From Egicoccus sp. AB-alg2 (GTDB lineage: Bacteria; Actinomycetota; Nitriliruptoria; Nitriliruptorales; Nitriliruptoraceae): a DNA stretch of 64,000 nt. Within the stretch, counting starts at the first letter, position 1, and every line of letters begins with the position of its first letter. Made by a program: the position numbers and the translations under genes. The notes under the pieces are model-generated. The model saw nothing but the letters and a program-made list of their open reading frames with translations. It searched no databases and was not told the origin of the DNA. Location: NCBI RefSeq assembly GCF_041821065.1, contig NZ_JBGUAX010000008.1, forward strand, positions 62,001 to 126,000, written 5' to 3'. Below, piece by piece: positions 5,301-60,660 of this stretch.

Positions 5301-7013
5301 GCCGGCTCCGATGGTGCGTGGGCGATGTACCAGCCCTACCACCTCGGCGACGTCGCGCAGATGCGGCTGCGCGTGGCGTCACTCGACGACACGACCATCG
5401 AGGTGCGCCGCGATGCGCCGGACGGCCCCGTGCTCGGGACCGTGGACGTCGCGGCGACGGCCGAGGTCGAGCGGGTCGATGGTCCGGACGGCTTCGGCAG
5501 TGCGGTGCGGTTGCATCCAAACGGTCCGAACTCGTTCGTGGACCTGCCCGACGACCTCGTGAACGATCTCGAGGACTTCACGATCAGCACCTGGGTGCAC
5601 TGGAACGGCAGCCAGACCTGGGCCCGGATCTTCGACTTCGGGACCAACACGAGCAACTACATGTTCCTGACGCCGGCGGCGGCGGGTGCGGGACTGCGCT
5701 ACGCCATCACCACGGGTAGTGGCGAGCAGATGATCAACGCACCCTCGGCGCTGCCCACGGACGGCTGGCAGCACGTGGCGGTGACCCTGTCGGGGACGAC
5801 CGGCACCCTGTACCTCAACGGCGAGGCCGTCGGCACCAACACCAACATGACCCTGTCGCCCTCGGATCTCGGGAGCACCGACCAGAACTGGATCGGTGAG
5901 TCCCAGTGGGGCGCCGACCCGATCCTCGACGGTGCGGTGGACGACTTCCAGATCCACGACCGTGCGCTGACGGCGGACGAGGTCGCGGCCCTCATGGAGC
6001 CTCCGGGCGCCGACGCGAGTGGCGGCAACGTGGCCTGGTACCGCTTCGAGGAGGCCGGCGGCGCTCGCGCCGACGACTCCTCCGGTCAGGGCAACCACGG
6101 CACGATCGTCCAGGCCGCCGGAGCCGCGACCTACACCGACGTGCACGTCGACCTGGAACCGACGAACGAGACGCTCGAGCTGTACCTGGTGTTCCCGGGT
6201 GCCGAGGCGCGCGTGAACTTCCTCGAGATGCTCACGGCCGCCGAGCCGGAGCCGCCCTCGATCGAGGTCACGCTGGACCCCGCCGAACCCGACGGTCAGG
6301 ACGGCTGGTACACGGCGAGCGTGCTGGGCACCTTGTCGTCGGACGATCCGGAGGCACACCTCGAGTGGCGCGTCGCGGGTGGAGACGACTGGACCGCCTG
6401 GGCCGAGCCCGTCGCCTTCGACCAGGACGGCGAGCACGAGATCGAGGCCCGCGCGACCGGCGACGGTGGCTCGTCCGAGATCGTGACGGTGGCGTTCCGG
6501 ATCGACGCGACGCCACCGGAGACGCTGGCCACGGTCGAGGGGGAGCAGGACGGCGACGTGTACGTCGACGCCGCGTCCGTCATCCTCACGGCGCAGGACG
6601 CGACCTCCGGCGTGGCCACGACCGAGGTCCGTGTCGACGACGGCGACACCGTCGTCTACGACGATCCCGTGGTCCTCGCGGAGCCCGGCGAGTACACGGT
6701 CGAGTACCGCTCGATCGACGTCGCCGGCAACGCCGAGGACTGGCAGTCGCTCACGGTGACGGTGATGGTCGCCTGCACCGGCACGGTGGTCGTCGCCGGC
6801 ATCGACTCGGGCGTGCGCGAACGGGCGGTCGACCTCGCGAACTGCATGGCCGACCGGATCGGGCCGCGCAGTGACCACCGCAACCACGGGCACTTCGTCG
6901 ACCACGTGAAGGCCGTCGCCGACACGCTGGTGGACGAGGGGACCATCACGCGGGCGGAAGCCCGCCAAGTGCACACCGCTGGAGCACGGTCCAACACCGG
7001 GGGGCCGCGCTGA
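2310..7013 (+). CDS. Secreted multidomain protein: ThuA-like + PQQ glucose/sorbosone dehydrogenase + PKD + CBM6-like with nested LamG
   Basis: A 1567-residue exported protein. The start at 2310 is preceded by AGGGAGAG and opens directly into a Sec signal peptide (basic start, hydrophobic core, cut near TAVAQEE, about residue 29). Domains in order: ThuA-like, Pro-rich linker to about residue 265 (begins AVLFFHLTTGFRHDSI); a beta-propeller of the GSDH (PQQ glucose/sorbosone dehydrogenase) family, about 280-750, with HSSGDLDVGPDGALYISTGD; PKD, about 766-850 (WSFGDGTTS); a CBM6-like jelly roll starting near 968; a LamG/concanavalin-like domain at about 1052-1270; the rest of the jelly roll to about 1308; then two Ig-like/OmpL47-type repeats and a Cys-containing tail. 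Its likely role is binding and oxidising extracellular carbohydrate, consistent with the sugar genes downstream. It is followed at once by a strong hairpin terminator, so it is probably monocistronic. The substrate is unknown. Confidence 0.88.
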   Translation: MKRSTLRAVCQLLMIASLVLSTMGTAVAQEEPPPEEPPEEEYAVLFFHLTTGFRHDSIPAAIAAVEELGAEHGFSVTATQDPTVFDDESLREYAAVVFFTDGENTLDHAQRTAFERYMHRGGGFVGLHSTSNMDTTDWPWWEDLLGGAFFASHPPTQDATLVVEDGEHPSTLHLPDTLEWANDEWYDFTANPRDGGAHILLTVDESTYEGGQMGDDHPIAWCNEFDGGRTFYTALGHYAFHYEQAALRQHILGGIQWAAGVADGDCGEAREGPPTEASFERVALDDNTANPMRLAVTNDGRLIYVELAGTVKVYDPDTQAVTQAAQIPVYRDQENGLLGIALAQDFDDTGHLYLFYSDPDEEQQHVSRFTFDDLSNTIDLDSEVVLLEIPHQRVECCHSSGDLDVGPDGALYISTGDDTNPFGSQNFAPIDYREGRDPWDAARTSGNTADLRGKILRIVPMDEPGDTPGLGSTYTVPDDNLFTEANDTYHDLFPDGAYDPDLALPEIFVMGLRNPFAIAVDQVTGDLWFGDVGPDSNPSGGHHPDRGPRGYDSWTRTSEASNYGWPFCYVSHEPYRQWDFATQTPGDWYDCEGGATNDSPRNDGLDQLPPATPRTLWYPYCPYTAEPPFPEVPGGNVDGGQNYGCGRSAFMGDVYNFDHEAEEPAEGAFPEIFDGKSFVMEWERDVLATIDVDDDGQYVEGSFEEFGHRWRFSDETRIRKPHDMQFGPDGSMYLIEWGDDFNFAGGGVNADSGLYRISYVKGGRTPVASASATPDSGQPDLEVSFSSEGSYDPDGEDVTYLWSFGDGTTSTEANPTHTYTEMGVFNAQLTVTDTTDRSSSSTVTITVGNTRPEVTIEFPEHGQVFDWGDEIPFLITVEDAEEGTTGDGDIDCSQVTVQRGLWHSSGGAAHVHPGPSQNTCEGTLTTQADADHGDDAHIATVVTASYTDDGGDVGVPLTGGTTHLLQPRLKQGHFTSEESDDLTRAPSGDTECCGDAIAGSDGAWAMYQPYHLGDVAQMRLRVASLDDTTIEVRRDAPDGPVLGTVDVAATAEVERVDGPDGFGSAVRLHPNGPNSFVDLPDDLVNDLEDFTISTWVHWNGSQTWARIFDFGTNTSNYMFLTPAAAGAGLRYAITTGSGEQMINAPSALPTDGWQHVAVTLSGTTGTLYLNGEAVGTNTNMTLSPSDLGSTDQNWIGESQWGADPILDGAVDDFQIHDRALTADEVAALMEPPGADASGGNVAWYRFEEAGGARADDSSGQGNHGTIVQAAGAATYTDVHVDLEPTNETLELYLVFPGAEARVNFLEMLTAAEPEPPSIEVTLDPAEPDGQDGWYTASVLGTLSSDDPEAHLEWRVAGGDDWTAWAEPVAFDQDGEHEIEARATGDGGSSEIVTVAFRIDATPPETLATVEGEQDGDVYVDAASVILTAQDATSGVATTEVRVDDGDTVVYDDPVVLAEPGEYTVEYRSIDVAGNAEDWQSLTVTVMVACTGTVVVAGIDSGVRERAVDLANCMADRIGPRSDHRNHGHFVDHVKAVADTLVDEGTITRAEARQVHTAGARSNTGGPR

Positions 7014-7018
7014 GCGAA

Positions 7019-7058
7019 GACGGTGGCTGCGGGATTCTCCCGTCCCGCGGCCACCGTC
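7019..7058 (+). terminator. Hairpin terminator after the ThuA/dehydrogenase gene
   Basis: A 16-bp stem (7019-7034 with 7043-7058, one G-T wobble) closes an 8-base loop, starting 6 bases after the stop codon. There is no T-tract, as is common in high-GC actinobacteria. It lies between a plus-strand gene and the end of the minus-strand ROK gene at 7143, so it may serve both directions. Confidence 0.75.
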
Positions 7059-7142
7059 GGCCTCCGACCGGTCGCGCCCCACGGCGCGGCTGGTCGGGGC
7101 CGACGGCGAGCAGCTGCCGGGGCTGGTCGGGTGCGGGCCCGG

Positions 7143-8384
7143 CTAACCGACGTGCAGCCCGGGGTCCGACAACAGCTCCGCGAAGGCCAGCTCCGCCGCA
7201 CCGACCAGCGGGGCACTCCCGCCGAGCGCACTGGGGACGATGCGCACCAACTCGCCCGGCGGATCCAGCACCCGGGTGGCGAGCCCCTCGCGAACGGAAC
7301 GTTCGATGAGCGGGAACGTCTGGCGGTACAGGCCGCTGAGCACCACGAGCGAGGGATTGAGCAGGTTGACGAGGTTCCCGACGCCGATGCCGAGCCAGCG
7401 GCCGACGGCCTCCGCCGCGCCGAGCGCGGCCTCGTCGCCGGCCTCCGCGCGCGCCAGCAGCTCCGGGACGGCGACGGCGCCCGGGGCGTGCGGGTCCATG
7501 CCCGCCTCGCGTAGCAGGGCCGTCTGCCCGGCCGCCGTCTCCCAGCAGCCTCGGGCGCCACAGCCACAGCGCCGGCCCTGGGGATCGATCAGCATGTGGC
7601 CGGCTTCGCCGGCGTACCCGGCGGCGCCGAGCAGCGGCACGCCGTCGCTGATGACGCCGACGCCGATGCCGATCTCCCCGGAGACGAAGACGAGGTGGTC
7701 GACCCCGCGGCCCGCGCCGCGACGGTGCTCGGCCAGGGCCCCCAGATCGGCTTCGTTGGCGACGTGGACCGGCACGGGTCCGGGCAGGCGGGGCCGCAGG
7801 GCCGCGCGCAACGACGCGGCCAGCGGGACGTCGCGCCAGCCGAGGTTCGGCGCGAGATGGACGAAGCCGTCGCTGCGTCGCGTCACGCCGACCACCGCGA
7901 CCCCCACGGCCGTGAGCGTGCCGCCGGACAGCGTCTCCAGCAGCGGGCCGGCCGCGGTCGCGAGATCGGCGACGAGGTCCTCGGGTGCGTGCTTCTGGGG
8001 GTCGTGGGGGACCGTGGCCGTGGAGACGACGTGGCCGCCGATCCCGACGGTCGCCACCGTGGCGGCGTCCGCCGCGAGTTCGATCGCCAGGACGTGGGCG
8101 CCCTCGGCCCGGGGGTGCACGACCGGTGAGGGGCGGCCGGGCCCGCTCGAGGCTGTGCCACCCACCTCGGTGACCAGGCCGAGGTCGACGAGTTCCGCGA
8201 CCAGGGCGCCGATCGTCGACCGGTTCAGCCCGATGGCCGCGGTCAGCTCGGACCGGGACGTCCCGCCGTGGAGATGGACGTGGCGCAGCACCGCCGAGAG
8301 GTTGGCGCGGCGCAGTCCGCTGGCGCGGGCGCCGCGGCCGGAGACCGGGCGCGGCCCGACCGCGCCGGTGCCGTGTTCGTGCAC
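7143..8384 (-). CDS. ROK-family transcriptional repressor (XylR/NagC type)
   Basis: A 413-residue protein with an N-terminal winged helix ([31 protein letters not shown]) followed by an actin-like ROK sugar-binding domain. The ROK signature is complete: the GHM motif within [10 protein letters not shown] and the zinc-binding Cys cluster [10 protein letters not shown]. The start is a GTG at 8384 with AGGAG 8 bases upstream; longer frames would run into xylA. It is transcribed divergently from xylose isomerase across a 111-bp gap that holds a partly palindromic site. ROK repressors of this layout normally sense a sugar and control the adjacent sugar genes, so a xylose-responsive repressor of xylA is the simplest reading. 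The effector itself is inferred from context. Confidence 0.9.
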
Positions 8385-8428
8385 CCGCCGAACTCCTCTG
8401 CCGTGAAGGGTGAGCTTACTGCCCGGGA

Positions 8429-8457
8429 GGCTTATTGTGGTTCTGAACAACAAAGCC
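8429..8457. promoter_or_regulatory. Candidate ROK operator and xylA promoter region
   Basis: The stretch has outer arms GGCTT and AAGCC around a centre containing TTGT and ACAACAAA. This resembles the TTTGTT...AACAAA pattern of XylR-type ROK operators, though the symmetry is imperfect. A possible -10 (TATTGT, 8433-8438) lies inside it, so a bound repressor would block the polymerase. It is centred about 55 bases upstream of the xylA ATG. Confidence 0.4.
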
Positions 8458-8495
8458 GTGGTGGCCCCACGGCACGATGGATCCCGGAGGTCCCC

Positions 8496-9827
8496 ATGAC
8501 GGAAGCATTCTTCTCCGACGTCGCCGGCCGTGTCCCGTTCGGTGGCCTCGGAGGCGACGAGGACGTCGCGTACCGAGTCTATGACCCGGATCGCATCGTG
8601 GCCGGCAAGCGGATGGAGGACCACCTACGCATCGCCGTCTGCTACTGGCACTCGTTCGCCTGGTCGGGTGCCGACGTCTTCGGCGACGGGACCCTGGACC
8701 GGCCGTGGCTCCAGGACTCGGCGTCGCTCGACGCGGCCCGCCGCAAGATGGACGCGGCCTTCGAGTTCTTCACCAAGCTCGGGGTGCCGTTCTTCACCTT
8801 CCACGACGTCGACATCGCCCCGCAGGGCGAGCGGTTCTCGGACTTCGCGCGCAACCTGGAGACCATGGTCGAGGAGGCCGAGAAGCGCATGGCCGAGACG
8901 GGCGTGCGCCTGCTGTGGGGGACCGCCAACCTCTTCTCGCATCCCCGGTACGCCGCCGGCGCCGCGACCAACCCCGACCCGGCGGTGTTCGCCCACGCGG
9001 CGGCGCAGGTCCGTCACGCGCTCGAGGCGACACACCACCTCGGCGGTCAGAACTACGTGCTCTGGGGGGGTCGAGAGGGCTACGAGAGCCTGCTCAACAC
9101 CCGTCTGGCGCACGAGGAGCGGCAACTGGCCCGCTTCCTGACCATGGTGGCCGAGCACAAGCGCGACATCGGCTTCGAGGGGCCGCTGCTGATCGAACCG
9201 AAGCCGGCGGAGCCGACCAAGCACCAGTACGACCACGACGCGGCGACGGTGCACGGGTTCCTGGCACGGTACGACCTGCTCGACGAGTTCCGGCTGAACC
9301 TCGAGGTCAACCACGCGACGCTCGCGGGACACAGCTTCCACCACGAGGTCGCCTACGCGGTCGAGCACGGCCTGTTCGGAAGCATCGACGCCAACCGCGG
9401 TGACGAGCAGAACGGGTGGGACACCGACCAGTTCCCCAACTCGGTGGACGAACTGTCGCTGGCGATGTACGAGATCCTGCGCGGTGGCGGGTTCACGACC
9501 GGAGGCTGCAACTTCGACACGAAGCTGCGCCGCCAGAGCATCGACCGGACCGACCTGTTCCACGGGCACATCGGCGGCATCGACACGCTCGCGCGTGCCC
9601 TGCTCGTGGCCGCGGAACTGCACGAGCGTGAGACCCTGTCGGCCGCCCGCGCGTCCCGGTACGCGGACTGGGACGGTGAGCTCGGTGCCGGCATCCTGGA
9701 GGGCCGCGAGACGTTGGCCAGCCTGGAACGCCGGGTGTCGGCGGGCGAGATCGTCCCGACCGGCCGGTCGGGCCGTCAGGAACTCCTGGAGAACCGCGTC
9801 AACGCGGCCATCTGGTCCGTCTCGTGA
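8496..9827 (+). CDS. xylA: Xylose isomerase
   Basis: A 443-residue group II-size xylose isomerase, which interconverts D-xylose and D-xylulose in the cytoplasm using two divalent metals. Catalytic and metal motifs are present: FHDVD with His103 and Asp106, [16 protein letters not shown] (Glu and Lys metal and hydride-shift residues), [32 protein letters not shown] and NFDTKLRR. The ATG at 8496 has GGAGG 6 bases upstream. Upstream and divergent is a ROK repressor; downstream is a strong bidirectional hairpin, so the gene is probably a single-gene unit. No xylulokinase gene is found in the window. Confidence 0.95.
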
Positions 9828-45741: not shown

Positions 45742-46962
45742 ATGACCGCACCGATCGGTGTGTCCGACGCGGACCGGTTGCAGGCCGAGACCGAGCGGCT
45801 GCTGCGCTTCGGCACGGACGGCCGCCATCCGGCCGGCGGGTTCGCGTGGCTGCGCGACGACGGCAGCCCGGACCTCGACCGCGACGTGGAACTGTGGATC
45901 ACGTGCCGGATGACGCACGTCTACGCGCTGGGGCACCTGCTGGGCTTCGACGGCGCCGTCGAACTCGTCGACCACGGCCTGGCTGCCCTGGACGGTCCGC
46001 TCCGCGACCATCAGCACGGCGGGTGGCATGCCGCCGTCGGCCGTGACGGTCCGACGTCGTCGACGAAGGGCGCCTACGAGCACGCCTTCGTCGTGCTGGC
46101 CACCTCCTCGGCGCAGGCAGCCGGCCGGCCGGGTGCCGGGGACCTGCTCGCCGACGCGCTCGAGGTGCAGGAACGCCACTTCTGGGACGACACCGACGGT
46201 GCGGTGGTGGACGCCTACCTCGACCCGGCGTTCGAGACGCTCGAGGACTACCGCGGCGCGAACGCCAACATGCACACCGTCGAGGCCTACCTGGCGGCCG
46301 CGGACGTCACCGGCGACCGCGTGTGGCTGGAGCGCGCGGACCGGATCGTGCACCGGTTCGTGCACGGCGCCGCGGGCGGGCACGGCTGGCGCCTGCCGGA
46401 ACACTTCGACCCGGAGTGGCGCCCCCGTCTCGACTACAACCGCGACGAGCCGGCGCACCCGTTCCGTCCCTACGGCGCCACCGTCGGGCACGCCTTCGAG
46501 TGGGCGCGGCTCGCCCTGCACCTCGAGGCCGCCCGCGGCGAGACGGCGACGCAACTGCGCAGCGACGCCGAGGCGCTGTTCGACCGCGCGGTCGAGGACG
46601 GCTGGGACGCCGACGGTGCGCCAGGCTTCGTCTACACGACCGACTGGGACGGCACCCCGGTGGTCCGCAACCGCCTGCACTGGGTCGTCACCGAGGCCGT
46701 CAACGCGGCCGCCGCGCTGTACCTCGCCACGGGCGAGGAGCGCTACGCCGACTGGTACCGCACCTGGTGGGACTACGCCGAGGCGCACCTGATCGATCGC
46801 GAGGCGGGCTCCTGGCACCACGAGCTGGCGCCGGACAACCGTCCGGCCGCCAGCGTGTGGGCCGGCAAGCCGGACCTGTACCACGCCGTGCAGGCGACGC
46901 TGGTCCCGCGCCTGCCGCTGGTTCCGTCGCTGGCGAGCGCCCTTGCCGCGGGCCGCGCCTAG
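45742..46962 (+). CDS. AGE-family sugar isomerase/epimerase (YihS-like)
   Basis: A 406-residue (alpha/alpha)6-barrel protein of the N-acylglucosamine 2-epimerase superfamily, closest in layout to the YihS-type aldose-ketose isomerases (mannose or sulfoquinovose isomerase). Shared segments are ITCRMTHVYALGHLLG, HGGWHAAVG, NANMHTVEAYLAAADVTGD, HGWRLPEHFDPEWRPRLDYNRDEP, GHAFEWARLAL, LHWVVTEAVNAAAALY, GSWHHELAPDN and VWAGKPDLYHAVQA. The ATG has GGAGGAG at 5-base spacing. It lacks partners of a sulfoquinovose pathway nearby, so mannose-fructose type isomerisation of a glycosidase product is the simpler guess. It is the last gene of the operon. Confidence 0.83.
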   Translation: MTAPIGVSDADRLQAETERLLRFGTDGRHPAGGFAWLRDDGSPDLDRDVELWITCRMTHVYALGHLLGFDGAVELVDHGLAALDGPLRDHQHGGWHAAVGRDGPTSSTKGAYEHAFVVLATSSAQAAGRPGAGDLLADALEVQERHFWDDTDGAVVDAYLDPAFETLEDYRGANANMHTVEAYLAAADVTGDRVWLERADRIVHRFVHGAAGGHGWRLPEHFDPEWRPRLDYNRDEPAHPFRPYGATVGHAFEWARLALHLEAARGETATQLRSDAEALFDRAVEDGWDADGAPGFVYTTDWDGTPVVRNRLHWVVTEAVNAAAALYLATGEERYADWYRTWWDYAEAHLIDREAGSWHHELAPDNRPAASVWAGKPDLYHAVQATLVPRLPLVPSLASALAAGRA

Positions 46963-47574: not shown

Positions 47575-50500
47575 CTAGCTCGCGCACCGGATCCCGCGGC
47601 CGAGCGTACGCGATGCCAACGCCTCGATCACGGGAACGACGTCGGGCAGTGGTGCGCTCTCGTCGTCCCCGTAGCACTCCAGCAGCCACCGGCTGCCGTC
47701 CGGGGTCGTCTCCGCGATCCCGACGACCCAGTCGAAGCCTTCCTCGGCCAGGACCGCCCGTTCCTGGGGATCGGCGCGGGGGTCGTCGGCGTCGACCGCG
47801 AAGCCGCCACCGTTGCGGAACGCCTCGGCGGTGGTCGGATATTCCGTGATGGGGTACTCGCCGTCCTCGGCCATCGGCTTCAACGGCTCGCCGACGCGCC
47901 GGCGCCGCACGTGGCGGGAGTGGGTCGCCAGCACGTCGTTCCCGGGCTTGGCGACGCTGAGCACCCACCGGTTGAGGTCGAACATCGCCACCGCCACGGC
48001 GCCGACCTGCTCCAGGCGCGTGGGTGCGTCGTCCGCGTCGTCGACCGCGCGGCTCCAGCGGCCGAGCGCCGCCTCGAGGGACCGCCGGTGGCCCCGGCTG
48101 CGGGCGCGGCGGCCGCCGGCCGCCGTCTCCGCGGCATGGGCGAGCCGTGACGGCGGTGGCGGGCTCCCGGAGCCGTCGTCGACGACCACCGCCAGCCCTG
48201 TCGCCTTCGCGCGGTATTGCGCGACGTCCGCCCGGGCGAGCAGGTCGGTCAGCGTCGTGTCGGCAGGTCCGGCCGTGGCGACGCCGATCGCGACCTGCGG
48301 TTGCGGTGGTGGGCTGTCGGCGAGCAGTTCGGTGAACCGGGCGACCAGCGCCATCGCCTCCTCGGCGCCCCCGGCCAACACGACGCAGAACTCGTCGCCG
48401 CCCAGCCGCGCGGCCAACGATTCCGCATGCGTCAACGAGACGCGGCTGAGCGCGTCGCCCACGGTGACCAGCAGGTCGTCGCCGGCCGCGTGCCCGTGGA
48501 CGTCGTTGATCTCCTTGAGCCCGTTGACGTCCAGCATGATGGCCGTGACCGGCTGGGCCGGCCCGGCGACCAGCAGCGCCGCCGCGAAGTCCTCCAGCGG
48601 GCGGCGGTTGGCCAGGCGCGTCAGCGGGTCCTCGCCGGCCAACCGCGACAGGTGCCCGTAGTGCTCCGCCCGCGAGATGGCGAGCCCGACGAAGCCGGCG
48701 ACCGCGGTCAGGTACGGCACGTCGGCGGCCGAGAAGGACGGCTCCGCGGCGGACGTGGTGACGTACAGCTCGCCCCACACGGCGCCTTCGACGACGATCG
48801 CGACACCAGCCGCGGAGCCCAGGCCGGCGCGGCGGAGGCGGTCGCGCTCGTCGGCGTCGATGGCGGGGTCGTCCGCGGCGCGCAGGATCACCGAGCGCTC
48901 GAGCAGCAGCCGCGAGGTCACCGGCAGGTCGCGCAGCAGGTAGTGCTCGTCGCGTGGGCGCCGCTCGGCGTCCCCCCGCAACTCCCCGACGTTGACGAGG
49001 GTGCGCAGCGCGGCCCCCTCCCGGTCCCAGCGCGAGATCGACAACGAGAGGCCGCCGAGCGCGCTCAGCGCCTCGTCGGCACAGATCTCCAGGACGTCGA
49101 GGAGTTCGCCGCTGGCCCCGATGGCGCGGGCAACGCCGACCAGGCCACGCAGGCGCTCACCCGCGTCGTCACGTCCGCGCAGGCGCTGCTCGACCTCGCG
49201 CACCGCGGGCACCGGCGCCGACGACACCGCCGTGCAGTACCACCACGTGCGCAGCCGACCGGCCAGGTCCGCCGCCAGGTCCGCGTCGTCGGGCGCCAGT
49301 TCCCGCAGCGCCTCGCCCAGGTCGCGGCGGACGCGGCGGGCGACCGCCAGACGGGCGACCGCCGCGGCCAGCGCGCCGGGGTGGGCGTCGGCCCGCAGCA
49401 CGGGCGCCTGCGACAGGTGCGCCTCGAGCTCCCGCCAGGCGGGCACGGCATGGGCGGTGCGCACCACCTGCAGCAGTTCGCCGGCCCCGACGAGCGTCGC
49501 CAGGAGCACGACGACGTCGATCTGCGTCCGCGACAACGACAGCGCCGCGCCCACCACCCGGGCGGCCTCGACGGTGTCGGCCCGAAGGGACCCGGCACGA
49601 GGGTCGCCCGCGACGACCACCGCCGCGGCCGCCGCGGCGAGGTCGAGGGCGCGTGGCCCCACCAGCGGCTGTTCGCGACGGGGCGGTTCGACGCGGCCGG
49701 CCGCGACCCTCGTGTGGGTCGTCTCCGCGTCGGCGGGCGCGGCGAAGAGCACGCCCTGGCCCAACTCGCAGCCCCATTCGCGCAGGGTGGCGATCTGTTC
49801 GGGCCGGTCGATGCCGTCGGCGACGACCTCCAGCCCGAGCGAGCCGCCGAGTCCGATCGCGGCCTGCACGACCAGCGCCCGGCCCCGCGTCGGGCCGGTG
49901 GCCGTGCCGACCGCCGAGACGAAGCCGCGGTCGAGCTTCAGCATCGTCACCGGAGCGGACGCCAGCCGGTCGACCGTGGTCATGCCGGTCCCGAAGGCAT
50001 CCAGCGCGATGCCGATGCCCAGGTCGGCGAGCGCGTACAGCGGCAGTGGCGCGGCGCCCTCGGCGTCGAAGGCCGTGTGCTCGCTGACCTCCACGACCAG
50101 GGCGCCGGCCGGCAGGGCCGTGGCCGCGAGCACGCGCCGGACCAGGTCGACGAACACCGGCGACGCCAGCGCCGACGACGACACGTCGAGGTGCAACCGC
50201 AGCCCCGCGAGCGTCGACGCACGCCGCCAGGTGGCCAGCTGGGTGCACGCGCGCACGAGCGTCTCGGCCGCGACGGCCGTTGCCAGCCCGTAGCGTTCGG
50301 CGACCGCCGTCGGGTCCAGGTCCGTGCCGTCGGCACGCACCGTCGCCTCGACGGCCACCGGGCGCGCGGACGCGAGCTCGACGACCGGCTGGTAGACGAC
50401 GGACAGACCTTCACCGGCCAGCAGCTGCGCGAGCCGCGCGGCCTCGGGGGCGTGCTCCGCCGGACGATCGCCCTGCCACGTCAGCAGGGTCGCCTGGACG

Positions 50501-50592
50501 GCGGCACGCAACTCGCGCGGGACCGGCGCCTCGCGCCGGCCGTGCACCGTCCCGCCCCTCAACGCCGCCCCTCGCTGACCGTTTCCGGACAT
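47575..50592 (-). CDS. Cyclic-di-GMP signalling protein: degenerate EAL domain - GAF - GGDEF - C-terminal sensor-like domain
   Basis: A 1005-residue protein whose EAL-type domain is at the N-terminus (about 60-290), before the GGDEF domain, the reverse of the usual order. The EAL site is altered: EAT at 82-84, DAFGTG at 198-203 instead of DDFGTG, ADGID at 258-262 instead of AEGVE, and Asp136 for the usual Asn, so phosphodiesterase activity is doubtful. A helical linker follows, then a GAF-like domain (about 430-600) and an apparently intact diguanylate cyclase domain with GGDEF at 731-735 and MLDVNGLKEINDVHGH; no RxxD inhibitory site precedes it. The last 200 residues form another sensor-like domain. 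No membrane segments. An in-frame GTG at 50547 has a better ribosome site (GAGGGG) than the ATG at 50592. It is divergent from kaiC. Confidence 0.87.
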   Translation of the reverse strand: MSGNGQRGAALRGGTVHGRREAPVPRELRAAVQATLLTWQGDRPAEHAPEAARLAQLLAGEGLSVVYQPVVELASARPVAVEATVRADGTDLDPTAVAERYGLATAVAAETLVRACTQLATWRRASTLAGLRLHLDVSSSALASPVFVDLVRRVLAATALPAGALVVEVSEHTAFDAEGAAPLPLYALADLGIGIALDAFGTGMTTVDRLASAPVTMLKLDRGFVSAVGTATGPTRGRALVVQAAIGLGGSLGLEVVADGIDRPEQIATLREWGCELGQGVLFAAPADAETTHTRVAAGRVEPPRREQPLVGPRALDLAAAAAAVVVAGDPRAGSLRADTVEAARVVGAALSLSRTQIDVVVLLATLVGAGELLQVVRTAHAVPAWRELEAHLSQAPVLRADAHPGALAAAVARLAVARRVRRDLGEALRELAPDDADLAADLAGRLRTWWYCTAVSSAPVPAVREVEQRLRGRDDAGERLRGLVGVARAIGASGELLDVLEICADEALSALGGLSLSISRWDREGAALRTLVNVGELRGDAERRPRDEHYLLRDLPVTSRLLLERSVILRAADDPAIDADERDRLRRAGLGSAAGVAIVVEGAVWGELYVTTSAAEPSFSAADVPYLTAVAGFVGLAISRAEHYGHLSRLAGEDPLTRLANRRPLEDFAAALLVAGPAQPVTAIMLDVNGLKEINDVHGHAAGDDLLVTVGDALSRVSLTHAESLAARLGGDEFCVVLAGGAEEAMALVARFTELLADSPPPQPQVAIGVATAGPADTTLTDLLARADVAQYRAKATGLAVVVDDGSGSPPPPSRLAHAAETAAGGRRARSRGHRRSLEAALGRWSRAVDDADDAPTRLEQVGAVAVAMFDLNRWVLSVAKPGNDVLATHSRHVRRRRVGEPLKPMAEDGEYPITEYPTTAEAFRNGGGFAVDADDPRADPQERAVLAEEGFDWVVGIAETTPDGSRWLLECYGDDESAPLPDVVPVIEALASRTLGRGIRCAS

Positions 50593-50772
50593 ATCGGCTG
50601 ATGGGGACGGGAGTCGAGCGGTTCGCGCACCGGTCGAATGACCAGGTCGGCCCTCGCACGCGCCGGCACGGGACATGGGCGGCTGGTGCGCTGTCGCGGT
50701 GGGCCGGGGCGCGCGGCCGCACGTCCGGTCGCGCACGCCCGAGCGGCCGGCGGGCCTCGCCGCGCACGCGTC

Positions 50773-50778
50773 TAGGCT
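50773..50778 (+). promoter_or_regulatory. -10-like element upstream of kaiC
   Basis: TAGGCT, the same hexamer as seen before the glycerate kinase and globin genes, lies 67 bases before the kaiC start in the 253-base divergent region. No clear -35 is visible. The rest of 50593-50845 shows no gene I can support, although the kaiC frame is open through part of it. Confidence 0.35.
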
Positions 50779-50845
50779 CGCTCGCGGCGGCCGCCGCCGC
50801 GTACGAGAGCCGTGCGTCGGGGTGCGGCAATCCGATGGGTCTTCG

Positions 50846-52348
50846 ATGGCAATCGCCCCGGTCCGCAAGGTGCCCACGGGGATCCCGGGCTTCGACGTCA
50901 TGGCGCACGGCGGCCTGCCGGCCGGTCGCACCACGCTGGTCGCCGGCAGCGCCGGTTCGGCCAAGACCCTGTTCGCGTCGCAGTACCTCGCCGGCGGGAT
51001 CATGGCCCACGACCAGGCGGGCGTCTTCGTCACCTTCGAGGAGACGCCGCTCGACGTGCGCCGCAACCTCGTGTCGTTGGGGTGGGACGTCGAGGCCTGG
51101 GAGGCGGCCGGCAAGTGGCGCTTCGTCGATGCCTCGCCGGACCCCGAGCAGGATGTCACGCTGACGGGCGCCTGGGACTTCGGTGCGCTGATGGCGCGGA
51201 TCCGCCGGGCGGTGGAGTCGATCGGCGCGACCCGCGTCGTCGTCGATTCCCTCGGCGCGGTCTTCAGCGAGTTCTCCCAGAGCGGGCGCGTCCGGCGCGA
51301 GCTGCGGCGACTCGTACGCGGGCTGCGGGACCTTGACGTCACGTCGGTCATGACGGTCGAGCGCACCTCGGAGTACGGCGACCTCAGCCGCTGGAACGTG
51401 GAGGAGTTCGTCACCGAGGACGTGATCGTGCTGCGCAACATCCTCGAGGACGAGGCTGCGCGCCGGACGATGCAGATCCTGAAGTTCCGGGGTACCACCC
51501 ACCGCAAGGGTGAGTTCCCGTTCGCGATCATCAACGATCGTGGCATCGTCGCCCTGCCACTGGCCAACTCCGCGCTGATCGACCTGCGATCGAGTTCGGA
51601 ACGCATCGACTCCGGCAACGACGTGCTGGACGGCATGTGTGGTGGCGGGCCGTTCCGCGACTCGATCAGCCTCGTCTCCGGGGCCACCGGCACGGGCAAG
51701 ACCCTGACGGTCACGGAGTTCATGAAGGGTGGGTCCCGCAGCGGTGACCGATGCCTGCTGTTCGCCTTCGAGGAGTCGCGCGCGCAGCTGATCCGCAACG
51801 CCGCCGGCTGGGGCGTGGACTACGAACGGATGGAGCGCGACGGGCTGCTGCGCATCGTCGCCGCCTATCCGGAGACGGCGTCCCTGGAGGAGCACCTCGT
51901 CTCCATAACCGACGCGGTGAACGACTTCCAGCCGCAGCGCTTCGCCCTCGACTCGCTGTCCGCCCTGGAGCGGGCGGCCACGTTGCGCGGGTTCCGGCAC
52001 TTCGTGATCGGCGTCACCTCGATGCTCAAGGAGCGCGGGGTCACCGGGATGTACACGGCCACGACGCCCAGCCTCATGGGCGGCGCGTCCGTCACCGAGT
52101 CGCACATCTCCACGCTGACCGACGCGATCATCCTGCTGCGCTACGTGGAGCTGGCCGGCGAGGTGAAGCGCGCGATCTCGGTGCTGAAGATGCGCGGATC
52201 CATCCACGACCGCGAGATCCGCGAAATCACCATTGACGGCTCCGGCATGCACATCGGCGAGCAACTCACCAACGTGTCGGGTGTGCTCTCCGGGGCGCCG
52301 CGGCAGTTGGGACCGGACGAGCTCGAGGTCGTGGGTCGCCAGGCCTGA
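50846..52348 (+). CDS. kaiC: Circadian clock protein KaiC-like autokinase/ATPase
   Basis: A 500-residue double-domain RecA-like ATPase. CI domain: Walker A GSAGSAKT (34-41) and the catalytic Glu pair 65-66 (TFEETPLD). CII domain: Walker A GATGTGKT (279-286) and Glu pair 309-310 (AFEESRAQ). The CII phosphorylation segment VTESHISTLTDAIILLRYVE keeps Ser422-Thr423, the counterparts of Ser431-Thr432 of the Synechococcus protein, and Thr417 for Thr426. The protein ends soon after the A-loop region (VSGVLSGAPRQLGPDELEVV) and lacks the C-terminal tail that binds KaiA. The ATG at 50846 is chosen because KVPTGIPGFD then lies at the usual N-terminal place; its ribosome site is weak and a start further up is possible. 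kaiB follows 34 bases later. Confidence 0.9.
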   Translation: MAIAPVRKVPTGIPGFDVMAHGGLPAGRTTLVAGSAGSAKTLFASQYLAGGIMAHDQAGVFVTFEETPLDVRRNLVSLGWDVEAWEAAGKWRFVDASPDPEQDVTLTGAWDFGALMARIRRAVESIGATRVVVDSLGAVFSEFSQSGRVRRELRRLVRGLRDLDVTSVMTVERTSEYGDLSRWNVEEFVTEDVIVLRNILEDEAARRTMQILKFRGTTHRKGEFPFAIINDRGIVALPLANSALIDLRSSSERIDSGNDVLDGMCGGGPFRDSISLVSGATGTGKTLTVTEFMKGGSRSGDRCLLFAFEESRAQLIRNAAGWGVDYERMERDGLLRIVAAYPETASLEEHLVSITDAVNDFQPQRFALDSLSALERAATLRGFRHFVIGVTSMLKERGVTGMYTATTPSLMGGASVTESHISTLTDAIILLRYVELAGEVKRAISVLKMRGSIHDREIREITIDGSGMHIGEQLTNVSGVLSGAPRQLGPDELEVVGRQA

Positions 52349-52382
52349 CGCCATGGCGGCCGGCGACGGGGGAGGAGGGCGC

Positions 52383-52709
52383 ATGGACCGACCACCGCAG
52401 GTCCAGCTCCGATTGCGCCTGTACGTCAATCGGCACGCGCCCGAGTCGGCCACGGTCGAGGCCAACCTGCGTGCCCTCTGCGACGGCGCCGGGCTGGAGT
52501 ACGACGTCGAGGTGTTGGACGTGGACGAGCACGCCGATGCGGCCGAGGCGGACCGGATCATGCTGACGCCGACGCTCCTCCGGCTCACCCCGCCGCAGCT
52601 GCGGGTGGCCGGCGACCTGACCGACGTCGAGGCGGCACTCGACGGCCTGGGGCTGCGGATCTGGGCGCGCAACCACCGACGACCGGTCGTGAACGACGGA
52701 TCCGTGTGA
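52383..52709 (+). CDS. kaiB: KaiB-like clock protein
   Basis: A 108-residue protein with the thioredoxin-like KaiB pattern: LRLRLYVNRHAPESATVEANLRALC, then YDVEVLDVDEHADAAEADRIM, the cis-Pro motif TPTLLRLTPP and the ending RVAGDLTDVEAALDGL. Canonical KaiB is about 100 residues. The ATG at 52383 has GGGGAGGAGG just upstream; an in-frame ATG at 52353 is less well placed. It is in the same operon as kaiC, in the order C then B, and its 3' end faces the receiver gene 7 bases away. Known KaiB proteins switch fold to bind KaiC; whether this one does is not shown. Confidence 0.83.
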   Translation: MDRPPQVQLRLRLYVNRHAPESATVEANLRALCDGAGLEYDVEVLDVDEHADAAEADRIMLTPTLLRLTPPQLRVAGDLTDVEAALDGLGLRIWARNHRRPVVNDGSV

Positions 52710-52716
52710 GACGGCG

Positions 52717-53139
52717 TCAGCCGCTCGTGTCGTCGGTCTGCCGGCTGGCCGCCGCACGGGCGATCTCGGCGCACAACTCGTCGTTGCGGTAGGGCTTGGC
52801 GATGAACGAGGTGTAGGCACCGGCCCCGGCGAGATGGTCGGCGACCTCGCTCTGGTCGAAGCCGCTGAAGAACACCACGGGCAGGTCGGGCTCGGCCTCC
52901 CGCAGGCGGGGGAAGGCGTCGTGCCCGGTCATCTCCGGCATCATCACGTCGAGGAGCACGACGTCGACGCTTCCGCCCCGTTCACGTACGAGGTCGACCG
53001 CCTGCCGGCCGTTGTCCGCGAGCACGACGTCGTAGCCGGCATGGCGCAGGATCAGCGACGTGACGTCGCGGACCATGGCGTCGTCGTCGACGACCAGCAC
53101 GGTCGTCGACGACACGGCGGTCGGCCCGACGTCGGTCAC
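52717..53139 (-). CDS. Single-domain response regulator (CheY-like receiver)
   Basis: A 140-residue stand-alone receiver with the acidic pocket VVDDD (18-20), phospho-acceptor Asp64 (LLDVMMPEMTG), Ser92 (VVFFSG) and Lys115 (IAKPYRND). There is no output domain. The GTG start overlaps the stop of the histidine kinase gene by 4 bases, so the kinase is very likely its phosphodonor. It converges on kaiB, which places it beside a Kai system, but a direct link is only inferred from position. Confidence 0.9.
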   Translation of the reverse strand: MTDVGPTAVSSTTVLVVDDDAMVRDVTSLILRHAGYDVVLADNGRQAVDLVRERGGSVDVVLLDVMMPEMTGHDAFPRLREAEPDLPVVFFSGFDQSEVADHLAGAGAYTSFIAKPYRNDELCAEIARAAASRQTDDTSG

Positions 53140-54692
53140 GTGCCCGCCCGCGGCACCGGCAGCAGGACGCGGAAGCGGGTGCCGCGCCCGGGGACGCTGT
53201 CGACGTCGATGGCGCCGCCGTGGGCCGCCACGATGCCCGAACTGGCGGCCAGCCCCAGCCCGCGGCCGGCGAACTTCGTGCTGAAGAAGGGGTCGAAGAG
53301 CCGCTCCCGGACGTCGTCCGGGATGCCGGGGCCGTCGTCCTCCACCTCGATGACGACGTAGCGGCCGGGGCGCAGCGCGCCGGTCGGGTGGGTCTCCGCC
53401 TGACGCGGCCCGACCGTGGTCGTCCGGGTCCGGACGTGGACGTGTCCCGGGCGGTCGCCGATCGCCTCGCCAGCGTTGATGACGAGGTTCATCAGGACCT
53501 GGCGCAGTTGGGTCGGGTCGGCGTGCAGGGTGGGGAGGTCCGGTCCGGCGTCGACCGTGAGCTCGGTCGTGCGGGGGATGCTGGACTGCAGCAGGCGGGC
53601 CATCCCCGTGACCAGTTCGTCCAGGTGGACGCGGCTGAACTCGATGCTGCCGCGACCGCCGTAGGCCAGCATGGAGCGCGCCAGTTCGGCCGCGCGCCCC
53701 GTGGCCTCCAGGATCTGCGACAGCGCGTGCTCGACCAGTTGGGGGTCGTCCAGACGGTCGCGGGCGATCGTGGCCCAGCCCTGCATGCCCACCAACAGGT
53801 TGTTGAAATCGTGCGCGACCCCGCCGGCGAGGGTCGCGAGGCTCTCCGCCTGCTGCAGGTTGCGCAGCCGCTCCTCGCTGCGACGTTCCCGCGTGATGTC
53901 GCGGGCGATGACGACGTGCCCGACGATGTCGGCGCCGTCGTCGAGCATGGGTGCTGCCGTGACCGCCAGCAGCAGTGGCTCCCGGTCGCGTTCCAGGCGG
54001 AACTCGTCGCGCACCTGGGCCCGGGCCTCGGTCGCGGTCCGCAGCAGTGCCTCGACCTGCTGGCGTGTGCCGTCACGGAGCAGTTCGTGCAGCGGCCGTC
54101 CCTCGGCCTCGGCGACGCTCACGCCCAGCACCTGTTCGCCGGTGTCGTTGAGCGTGACGACGCGGCCCTCCGGGGTCACGCTGAGGATCGCATCCGGAGC
54201 GTGGTGGACCAGCGCCGCGAGGTACTGCTCGGAGACCGTCGTCGGTTCGGCCTGCGGCGGTGCGGGGCTCGGGCCCAGGACGTCGCGGTTGATCGCGTCC
54301 AGCGCCCGCCGGACGCGGCGTCGACGGACCGCGGTGGACGCCGCCCGGTCCAGCGTGAGACGCAGCTGCCGACCATCGGGGGGGCCGGCCACCACGACCA
54401 CGTTGGTGAGTTCCGGCGCCAGCGCCAGCCGGGTCCGCGCCGTCGTGACCTGCTCGGGCGGGACGACCAGCGCCAGGCCGATGGCGCTGTCGGCACGACG
54501 GATGCTGCGAGCCGCCGACAGCGGCCGGCGGCAGGAGCTCCCGATGGCGACCAGTTCCGGACGCGGCTGCGCGTGACGGAGCAGGTCCAGGCACTGCTCC
54601 ACGTCGGCGACGAAGCGCAATCCGCCGTCCGTCCCGGCCGCCGCCTCGGCGACGGTGCCGGTGTCGGGTTCGAGGAGCAGGATGCGGGTCAT
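53136..54692 (-). CDS. Soluble PAS-containing histidine kinase (NtrB-like)
   Basis: A 518-residue kinase without membrane segments. An N-terminal pseudo-receiver-like region starts RILLLEPDTG (about 1-130); a PAS domain lies at about 160-275 (APDAILSVTPEGRVVTLNDTGEQVLG). The dimerisation and phosphoacceptor domain carries His294 in GGVAHDFNNLLVGMQGWA, and the ATPase domain has N-box LMNLVINAGEAI, G1 VEDDGPGIP, F-box FDPFFSTK and G2 GRGLGLAAS. This H-box form is typical of hybrid or NtrB-like kinases. It lies between an acyl-CoA dehydrogenase and the receiver in one minus-strand operon. It senses a cytoplasmic signal, perhaps redox or a ligand bound by PAS. Confidence 0.9.
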   Translation of the reverse strand: MTRILLLEPDTGTVAEAAAGTDGGLRFVADVEQCLDLLRHAQPRPELVAIGSSCRRPLSAARSIRRADSAIGLALVVPPEQVTTARTRLALAPELTNVVVVAGPPDGRQLRLTLDRAASTAVRRRRVRRALDAINRDVLGPSPAPPQAEPTTVSEQYLAALVHHAPDAILSVTPEGRVVTLNDTGEQVLGVSVAEAEGRPLHELLRDGTRQQVEALLRTATEARAQVRDEFRLERDREPLLLAVTAAPMLDDGADIVGHVVIARDITRERRSEERLRNLQQAESLATLAGGVAHDFNNLLVGMQGWATIARDRLDDPQLVEHALSQILEATGRAAELARSMLAYGGRGSIEFSRVHLDELVTGMARLLQSSIPRTTELTVDAGPDLPTLHADPTQLRQVLMNLVINAGEAIGDRPGHVHVRTRTTTVGPRQAETHPTGALRPGRYVVIEVEDDGPGIPDDVRERLFDPFFSTKFAGRGLGLAASSGIVAAHGGAIDVDSVPGRGTRFRVLLPVPRAGT

Positions 54693-59191: not shown

Positions 59192-60540
59192 GTAGCCCTG
59201 TGTCAAGCGGTCAGCGCGAGGTGTTGTTGCGCGGTGCGGTGGCGGGTGGGGTCGTAGGCGACGCCGTCTTGCCAGCAGCGCCAGATCACGCGCAGCCAGG
59301 CGCGGGCGAGGATGCGCACGGCGTGCTGGTGGGTCTTGCCTGCCGAGCGGTGCCGGTCGTAGATCGCGGCCGCCCAGGGCGAGGCATGTCGGGAGTCGCC
59401 GGCGAAGTCCATGACTGCGTCGCGGAGCTTCTTGTCGCAGGCCCAGCGGAACGTGACCACGTGGTGGCGGCCGGACTGTCTGGTCGAGGGGCAGGCGCCG
59501 GCCAGCGCGGCCAGGGACGCGTCGGTGGGGAACCGGCCGCGGGCGTCGCCGATCTCGACCAGCAGCTTGGCTGCGCGGACCATCCCGGAACGGGGCAGCG
59601 ACCCGAAGATGTGGGCGTCGGGGTGGACGGCGAGCTGTTCGGCGATGTCGGCCTCGAGCACCCGGATCTGTTCCACGATGGCCTGCAACGCAGCGACGTA
59701 GGCCAGTGTGGTCCGGCCGGCGGTGTCGCCGGCGTCGCCGCTGTGGCCGGCCGGTGCGGTGGTGAGCCGGTCCATCAGCGTGGCGGTCTTGGTCCGGCCG
59801 CAGTAGCGGTTGGCGGCGAGCCAGGCACCGAGACGTTTGGTCGACAGCCAGGCGGCCTTGTCGGCGGTGGGGAACCGGGTCAGGAACGTCAGGCTGATCG
59901 GCGAGTCCAGGTCGCTGAACAGCCCGACTGCGCCGGGGAAGACGATCTTGAGGTGTGCACGCAGCTGGTTGCACAGCGCCACGCGGGTTTCGACCAGGTC
60001 GGTGCGGGCGCGCACGGCAGCGCGCAGCGCCAGGGTCTGCGGGGTGTCGGGGGTCAGTGCGACCAGCCGGCCCGGGTCGGTCCGCAGCGTGTCGGCCAGC
60101 ACGAACGCGTCGAACCGGTCGTCTTTGTTCCCGGCCGAGCCGTACCGCGACCGCAGGTTCTTGACCTGCCGCGGCGTGATGACCACCACTTCGATGCCGG
60201 CGGCGAGCAGCGCGTCGACGACGGGTCCGTCGGGCCGTTCGATCGCGACCCGGTCGACGGCGTGCCGTTCGAGCTGGCCGACCAGTTTGCGGAGCCCGGC
60301 GGCGTCCATCGCGGTGTTGGAGCGGTGGACGACCTGGCCGACTACGTCCACGATGCACAGTTCGTTGCTGTCGTTGGCCCAGTCGATCCCGCCGGTCGGC
60401 GGTGCGGTCGTGAGCGTGTCATCCTGCACAGGTGTCTCCTCGCTGCGGCAACAGTGGGGATGCACCCGGTGGTGCCGGGACGTGCACGTCGGTCGCTCAC
60501 TGATCGGCGCTCTGCGGCGCTCAGCCCTGTAGCCGCTTGG
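59192..60540 (-). mobile_element. IS110-family insertion sequence (approximate ends)
   Basis: A transposase of the IS110 family with short flanks. AGCCCTGT occurs at both ends (59194-59201 and 60523-60530), and CAAGCGG just inside the left copy is inverted as CCGCTTG beside the right copy (59204-59210 and 60533-60539). IS110 elements lack long terminal inverted repeats and usually make no target duplication, so the true ends cannot be set with confidence; the right boundary may be as far as about 60660. It lies directly after the MFS gene stop. Confidence 0.6.
59203..60429 (-). CDS. IS110-family transposase (DEDD recombinase)
   Basis: A 408-residue transposase. The N-terminal RuvC-like DEDD domain shows GGIDWANDSNELCIVD, VAIERPDG and KDDRFDAFVLADTLR, and the C-terminal Tnp20-type domain shows IFGSLPRSGMVRAAKLLVEIGD and LAALAGACPSTRQSGRHHVVTFRWACDKKLRDAVMDFA, with its conserved Ser in PSTRQSG. 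The GTG start at 60429 has GAGGAG at about 7-base spacing. Both catalytic regions and the reading frame are intact, so the element may still move. Upstream non-coding sequence is where IS110 elements encode their guide (bridge) RNA. Confidence 0.92.
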   Translation of the reverse strand: MQDDTLTTAPPTGGIDWANDSNELCIVDVVGQVVHRSNTAMDAAGLRKLVGQLERHAVDRVAIERPDGPVVDALLAAGIEVVVITPRQVKNLRSRYGSAGNKDDRFDAFVLADTLRTDPGRLVALTPDTPQTLALRAAVRARTDLVETRVALCNQLRAHLKIVFPGAVGLFSDLDSPISLTFLTRFPTADKAAWLSTKRLGAWLAANRYCGRTKTATLMDRLTTAPAGHSGDAGDTAGRTTLAYVAALQAIVEQIRVLEADIAEQLAVHPDAHIFGSLPRSGMVRAAKLLVEIGDARGRFPTDASLAALAGACPSTRQSGRHHVVTFRWACDKKLRDAVMDFAGDSRHASPWAAAIYDRHRSAGKTHQHAVRILARAWLRVIWRCWQDGVAYDPTRHRTAQQHLALTA

Positions 60541-60660
60541 CACGTCCTGGGCCGCCGGACCCTGCAGAACTCACGCTGGCCCTCGAGGGGCAAGCGACGA
60601 AGGCAGTGGTCCGGCGGGCACCAGGGGCGCATCAGCAGTCAAGCTGCTGACACCCGGAAG
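60430..60660 (-). ncRNA. Possible bridge-RNA locus of the IS110 element
   Basis: This gene-free stretch lies upstream of the transposase on its own strand. In IS110-group elements the non-coding left end between the element boundary and the recombinase start encodes a structured bridge RNA that pairs with target and donor DNA. Stems are visible, for example CAGCAG/CTGCTG at 60634-60650 and GC-rich pairs near 60460-60475. The RNA was placed by position only; I cannot fold it or define its ends. Confidence 0.25.

Follow-up and report, generated by a model that had tools for sequence, protein, structure and literature searches.

The locus described here joins a complete two-domain KaiC to a divergent KaiB in an assembly without KaiA. 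Because both proteins are genuine and KaiA is missing, a timer or switch built on KaiB and KaiC only is the natural reading, and we consider it moderately probable that these genes specify a KaiBC switch or hourglass that is independent of KaiA and has two-component output, c-di-GMP output, or both. Work on KaiBC timers has so far dealt with cyanobacteria and with a small number of Proteobacteria, and here a complete KaiC is found in a non-photosynthetic-looking actinobacterial lineage. The points of note are gene losses in sister genomes, a second Kai set, and the P-loop of the KaiC CI domain. The locus lies in the window, which is the whole stretch of 64,000 nucleotides that was analyzed, and its features are as follows.

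47575..50571, reverse strand: gene transcribed divergently from kaiC, for an EAL-GAF-GGDEF protein of about 998 aa with an intact GGDEF motif
50572..50845, no strand: intergenic region from which the EAL-GGDEF gene and kaiC diverge
50846..52348, forward strand: kaiC, ATG at 50846 and stop at 52348, 500 aa, two KaiC ATPase domains
52383..52709, forward strand: kaiB-like gene, ATG at 52383 and stop at 52709, 108 aa, thioredoxin-like KaiB fold
52717..53139, reverse strand: response regulator consisting of a receiver domain alone, with its phospho-acceptor Asp, convergent with kaiB
53136..54692, reverse strand: soluble sensor histidine kinase, N-terminal domain of about 150 aa followed by PAS, HisKA, and HATPase_c

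A preliminary description had placed a kaiC-kaiB operon at 50846 to 52709, beside signaling genes; these limits are exact, and the neighbors (EAL-GAF-GGDEF, receiver, and PAS histidine kinase genes, all on the reverse strand) are real. Below, G000 denotes the window genome, and G009, G010, and G011 belong to the same genus.

KaiC sequence and phylogeny

As had been proposed, KaiC is a full two-domain protein with both glutamate pairs and the Ser-Thr dyad. It scores 355 bits against the Pfam KaiC family, with PF06745 matched twice as tandem domains, and passes the circ_KaiC equivalog (573 bits against a cut-off of 546) and PRK09302 (643 bits against 408). There is a vanishingly small chance that it is instead a RecA-like ATPase of the RadA/FlaH type unrelated to Kai function, a reading that draws on nothing beyond weak secondary matches to the RadA and FlaH models (24 and 74 bits, respectively). 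This reading is opposed by the circ_KaiC score, by the adjacent KaiB in the operon, and by the position of KaiC in trees, which like the model scores keeps it apart from the RadA/FlaH-like ATPases; phylogeny was the check that the preliminary description had suggested.

In both KaiC trees, a quick one (n = 37) and a careful one (n = 32), the window KaiC is placed in the KaiC1/KaiC3-type clade, together with T. elongatus KaiC1, PDB 8zn5 (which we take to be a reconstructed ancestor), and a proteobacterial set. The R. sphaeroides (KaiC2-type) clade is split from this one with support of 100/100. The window KaiC forms a group with KaiCs from its own genus and from a single related genus in the family (100/100), and this group is joined next by one KaiC from another family of the same class (100/95); the best named matches are proteobacterial and 57-62% identical. 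The KaiC1/KaiC3 type was distinguished from the KaiC2 type by an S-T dyad, an Arg in the CII Walker B region, and clade position. With the CII Walker B region reading RFALDSL, Arg included, and the dyad being S431/T432, the window KaiC is classed on its sequence as KaiC1/KaiC3 type, within a tree sampling that is without any cyanobacterial KaiC3 sequence. KaiC is rare in the phylum: at a threshold of E <= 1e-60 it was detected in 16 genomes out of a sample of 396, and several of the KaiCs in those 16 genomes are of the KaiC2 type.

Residues were numbered by alignment to Thermosynechococcus KaiC. In this alignment, E77/E78 (TFEE), E318/E319 (AFEES), and R385 are all present, and the phosphorylation sites T426, S431, and T432 are kept (VTESHIST). 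The preliminary description had credited KaiC with both Walker A motifs, and this stands in full for CII, whose P-loop is the canonical GATGTGKT; the CI motif is present in the non-canonical form GSAGSAKT, in which Ala replaces the Gly preceding the catalytic Lys, a departure from GxxxxGKT. The same AK form is common to all members of the genus, a related genus, Thiodictyon, Acetobacteraceae, and other proteobacterial KaiCs, and all KaiCs in the compared set that carry it retain E77/E78. Because the form is shared in this way, the altered loop does not represent decay confined to the window genome. The conserved Gly-to-Ala change offers a direct test of CI ATPase rate against timing. The C-terminus is short and stops soon past the A-loop (SGVLSGAPRQLGPDELEVVGRQA); in the alignment it has neither a full KaiA-binding tail nor a coiled-coil extension of the R. 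sphaeroides type.

A divergent KaiB

The claim of a KaiB-like gene following kaiC is borne out by a match to PF07689 of 53 bits, against a curated cut-off of 27. The gene begins after a gap of 34 bases, and the GGGGGAGGAGGG stretch before its ATG at 52383 resembles a ribosome-binding site. KaiB falls below both equivalog cut-offs (38 against 110 bits for PRK09301, 36 against 145 bits for TIGR02654). Since the structurally proven KaiB of R. sphaeroides, used as a control, is also under both (94 and 93 bits, respectively), the miss reflects divergence and not exclusion from the family. At the fold-switch positions K57, G88, and D90 (S. elongatus numbering), the window KaiB has R, G, and G in a HMMER alignment to 1wwj, and the residues that are invariant among KaiBs of related operons are kept. 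In an AlphaFold model built on an 11-sequence alignment (pLDDT 80), the structural elements follow one another as in thioredoxin-like proteins. The PDB entries that the model matches best are those of Legionella KaiB and of fold-switched KaiB in complex with KaiC CI (4kun, 5jwr, 5jwo), with TM scores normalized by target of 0.83-0.86. The KaiBs of the genus and family form one group with support of 98 in a KaiB tree that is otherwise weak. Taken by its sequence features, the window KaiB is real but divergent and fast-evolving. A third KaiB-like match in the genome (C7:208086, 22 bits) is a thioredoxin (WCGPC), as is the matching one in G011.

Neighboring signaling genes

The receiver and kinase genes overlap by 4 bases. 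No Pfam family reaches its cut-off in the N-terminal 150 aa of the kinase (window 54240-54692, reverse strand), which are 59% conserved in G011; it is possible that they form a Kai-specific input domain. A CikA-like pseudo-receiver was considered for this region and rejected, as it has no Pfam receiver match and an hhalign probability of 1.5% against local receivers; its single-sequence model was of too low quality (pLDDT 47) to be informative. About 4.5 kb past the kinase gene lies an IS110-family transposase (window 59203-60543, reverse strand; DEDD_Tnp_IS110 at 119 bits, and Transposase_20).

On the other side of kaiC, a TCTAGGCT/CTAGGGT box is found at window 50770-50800, in intergenic DNA that has otherwise diverged among the three genus members that have it. 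The box (CTAGGCT/CTAGGGT) is perhaps a promoter element. Beyond it, the divergent EAL-GAF-GGDEF gene has an intact GGDEF motif in all three species that carry it (the window species, G011, and G009). Both G011 and G009 retain the signature residues of the EAL domain (EAL, VNVS, DDFG, AEGIE), and these are substituted in the window species only (EAT, LDVS, DAFG, ADGID). Because the EAL residues are changed and the GGDEF motif is not, the protein of the window species probably keeps its cyclase side only. The 4.84-Mb genome holds about 13 GGDEF genes (14 domain hits), such that a GGDEF neighbor within 5 kb is expected by chance at roughly 3-4% of places. A GGDEF/EAL neighbor recurs at several other KaiC loci, and since it is also reported in the literature, the link between KaiC and GGDEF/EAL proteins is more than chance, the functional tie being a putative one.

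Conservation and loss among relatives

The neighborhood is conserved in the genus, with some losses. G011 has the same block as the window: EAL-GGDEF, kaiC, kaiB, receiver, kinase, acyl-CoA dehydrogenase, and oxidoreductase. G010 has kaiC, kaiB, receiver, and kinase without the EAL-GGDEF gene, and directly upstream carries an epimerase-family gene related to window 45796-46959. In G009, a single-contig genome that is 97% complete, kaiC and the EAL-GGDEF gene are both retained; at the expected place of kaiB, receiver, and kinase (L022:8245-11585), it has alcohol-dehydrogenase-like and metallo-hydrolase-like genes. No KaiB was found in G009 in a search to E 10, and the best match there to the cognate kinase is just 36% identical. 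The KaiC of G009 retains all key catalytic and phosphorylation residues.

KaiC is under strong purifying selection and is far better conserved than its neighbors. Within the genus its dN/dS is about 0.12-0.19, with pairs involving G009 (0.15-0.19) like the other pairs, these ratios being only relative as synonymous sites are partly saturated in such GC-rich genes. Non-synonymous distances are about 0.07-0.12 for KaiC and about 0.3-0.4 for KaiB, the kinase, the receiver, and the EAL-GGDEF protein.

That G009 keeps KaiC without KaiB, receiver, or kinase argues against KaiB-dependent timing being essential in the genus. Nothing else speaks as strongly against the idea that the conserved function is a clock driven by KaiB, and it favors an energy or stress switch with an optional KaiB. 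It is possible, although we hold it doubtful, that KaiC is mainly a KaiB-independent phospho-switch that responds to ATP/ADP or stress and controls either the kinase or the c-di-GMP enzyme; KaiB would then be a tuner that is not always needed, and no timer would be involved. The G009 KaiC fits such a role, being intact and of low dN/dS beside an EAL-GGDEF gene but without KaiB, receiver, or cognate kinase, as does a non-synonymous divergence of KaiB about 3 times that of KaiC. Ramlibacter likewise has kaiC without kaiB (PMC3164672), and Legionella KaiC2 has been tied to the stress response (as cited in PMC5520375). Weighing on the other side, six genomes were found with a KaiC of the window lineage, and in five of them (G000, G010, G011, G020, and G021) KaiB adjoins KaiC; KaiB also keeps the residues invariant in related operons. 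The close sister genomes, with exact losses of KaiB, kinase, and receiver in one and of the EAL-GGDEF gene in another, lend themselves to a natural comparison, both of the role of KaiC when KaiB is missing and of the output that is essential. The absence of a rhythm would strengthen the view that the older role of KaiC is energy or stress sensing.

The host genome, KaiA, and a second Kai set

The genome is actinobacterial, as the preliminary description had judged it: it contains 5 WhiB genes, and among 14 control genomes Corynebacterium alone has any. A search for KaiA gave zero PF07688 matches in this 98.5% complete genome, with the S. elongatus control positive. A KaiA or a KaiA3-like receiver chimera was also sought and rejected, as there is no KaiA domain genome-wide and the neighboring regulator is a receiver only, without a KaiA-like C-terminal domain. 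No SasA-type kinase with a KaiB domain was detected.

These findings bear on whether this actinobacterium could have a true circadian oscillator, one that sustains itself. The complete S/T dyad with T426 is what such a clock would have, and the KaiC is of the KaiC1/KaiC3 type and resembles 8zn5 and cyanobacterial KaiC more than R. sphaeroides KaiC. However, the assembly is without KaiA, the KaiA-binding tail is shortened, the receiver has no KaiA-like domain, and KaiB is lost in the sister species G009. The ATPase of Synechocystis KaiC3, moreover, is not temperature compensated (PMC6989803). A self-sustained clock is therefore very improbable here.

The window genome also has a second Kai locus, on contig C7.

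L007:6176-8966 (G000 contig C7), reverse strand: kaiB_b-kaiC_b-PAS histidine kinase, with kaiB_b ending at 8655, kaiC_b at 7162-8655, and the kinase at 6176-7171

KaiC_b is 47% identical to the window KaiC and has E77 changed to Gly and T432 to Val, with S431 kept. A KaiC of this type was not found in the three other genus members searched. A tree placement was attempted for KaiC_b, and it was left unplaced as its branch is too long (1.4). A broader proposal, which we regard as unlikely in its entirety, is that the core in the genus is KaiC, mostly with the divergent EAL-GAF-GGDEF enzyme, acting as a KaiC-driven c-di-GMP timer or switch paced by the unusual CI P-loop. KaiB would then be a tuner that evolves fast, is optional, and has been lost independently, and the KaiBC-kinase set on contig C7 a second and partly decayed one in the window species.

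Proposed mechanism

The favored KaiA-independent switch or hourglass can be outlined from what is known of the protein families, from which we infer the KaiC hexamer, its autophosphorylation, the binding of KaiB, and each step of the output. KaiC would assemble into the double-ring hexamer typical of the family and phosphorylate itself at the S431/T432 pair in CII without KaiA, tracking the ATP/ADP state of the cell. CI would hydrolyze ATP slowly, at a rate that the GSAGSAKT P-loop may alter. KaiB, probably easily fold-switched, would bind CI and push KaiC to the dephosphorylated state. The outcome would be an hourglass-like or damped timer, or a plain energy or stress switch, and not a self-sustained clock. 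The state of KaiC may be passed on to the neighboring PAS kinase with its single receiver, or turned into a c-di-GMP signal through the divergent EAL-GAF-GGDEF enzyme, or both.

Retention of the kaiC-kaiB-receiver-kinase block in G011 and G010, and of the EAL-GGDEF gene in G011 and G009, speaks for this scheme. So do the family scores, key residues, tree position, and low dN/dS of KaiC, the lack of KaiA in the assembly, the KaiB model, similar neighborhoods in Proteobacteria and in the survey of PMC3164672, and the precedent of a KaiA-less hourglass in R. sphaeroides. Against it, KaiB is fast-evolving, scores far under its equivalog cut-offs, and is absent in G009, where KaiC is intact, so that what is conserved may be something other than timing driven by KaiB. 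The non-canonical CI P-loop also counts against it, and the tie of KaiC to the kinase, receiver, and GGDEF protein is one of adjacency, with G010 having no EAL-GGDEF gene and G009 no kinase pair.

Comparison with known Kai systems

The C-B order and signaling neighbors had been taken to make the locus a candidate for an undescribed system. This is not supported, as R. sphaeroides has the order kaiC-kaiB-histidine kinase and the context was described in 2011, when clustered kaiC-kaiB outside cyanobacteria was reported to adjoin a histidine kinase or GGDEF/EAL gene almost always, with S-T or S-S sites (PMC3164672). No description of KaiBC in Actinobacteria/Actinomycetota was found in the open-license part of the literature that was searched.

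The proteobacterial KaiC1/KaiC3-like operons of Thiodictyon, Acetobacteraceae, Granulosicoccus, and Methylovulum (the "first kaiC context" of PMC3164672) contain the KaiCs 57-62% identical to that of the window. They have the same catalytic and phosphorylation residues, many also have the CI AK P-loop, and their KaiCs are adjoined by KaiB and by kinase or GGDEF/EAL (PAS-GGDEF-EAL) proteins. Their order is kaiB-kaiC, whereas in the window kaiC precedes kaiB, a kinase-receiver pair converges on the two genes, and an EAL-GAF-GGDEF gene diverges from them; the window KaiB is also far more divergent, and the host is actinobacterial.

The KaiBC of Rhodobacter (Cereibacter) sphaeroides (L039), an ATP/ADP-driven hourglass without KaiA (PMC10076222), shares the lack of KaiA, the kaiC-kaiB-histidine kinase order, and a two-domain KaiC, and its KaiB binds CI. 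In contrast, its KaiC is of the KaiC2 type in a separate clade (100/100), has an S-S dyad, and is 38% identical to the window KaiC. Because the window KaiC does not have the 50-aa coiled-coil C-terminal extension of the R. sphaeroides protein, that mechanism is not fully transferable.

Synechocystis KaiC3/KaiB3 (PMC6989803, PMC11372060), likened here by description only, offers a KaiA-independent KaiC with an S-T dyad and a second Kai set beside another KaiC in the same genome; unlike that system, the window genome has neither KaiA nor a KaiA3-like protein. The cyanobacterial KaiABC clock (T. elongatus / S. elongatus KaiC1) shares the KaiB fold and a two-tier KaiC that is about 50% identical with all key residues. 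It differs in that the window has no KaiA, an altered CI P-loop, a shortened C-terminal tail, a divergent KaiB, and no detected SasA-type kinase. Since altered c-di-GMP shifts the clock of S. elongatus (PMC13001216), a connection between Kai and c-di-GMP has precedent, in the other direction.

The window locus fits the known class of KaiC-KaiB loci with kinase or GGDEF-EAL neighbors and is not a new kind of system. Within that class it is set apart by its host phylum, the C-B order for this KaiC type, its divergent KaiB, and its particular set of neighbors.
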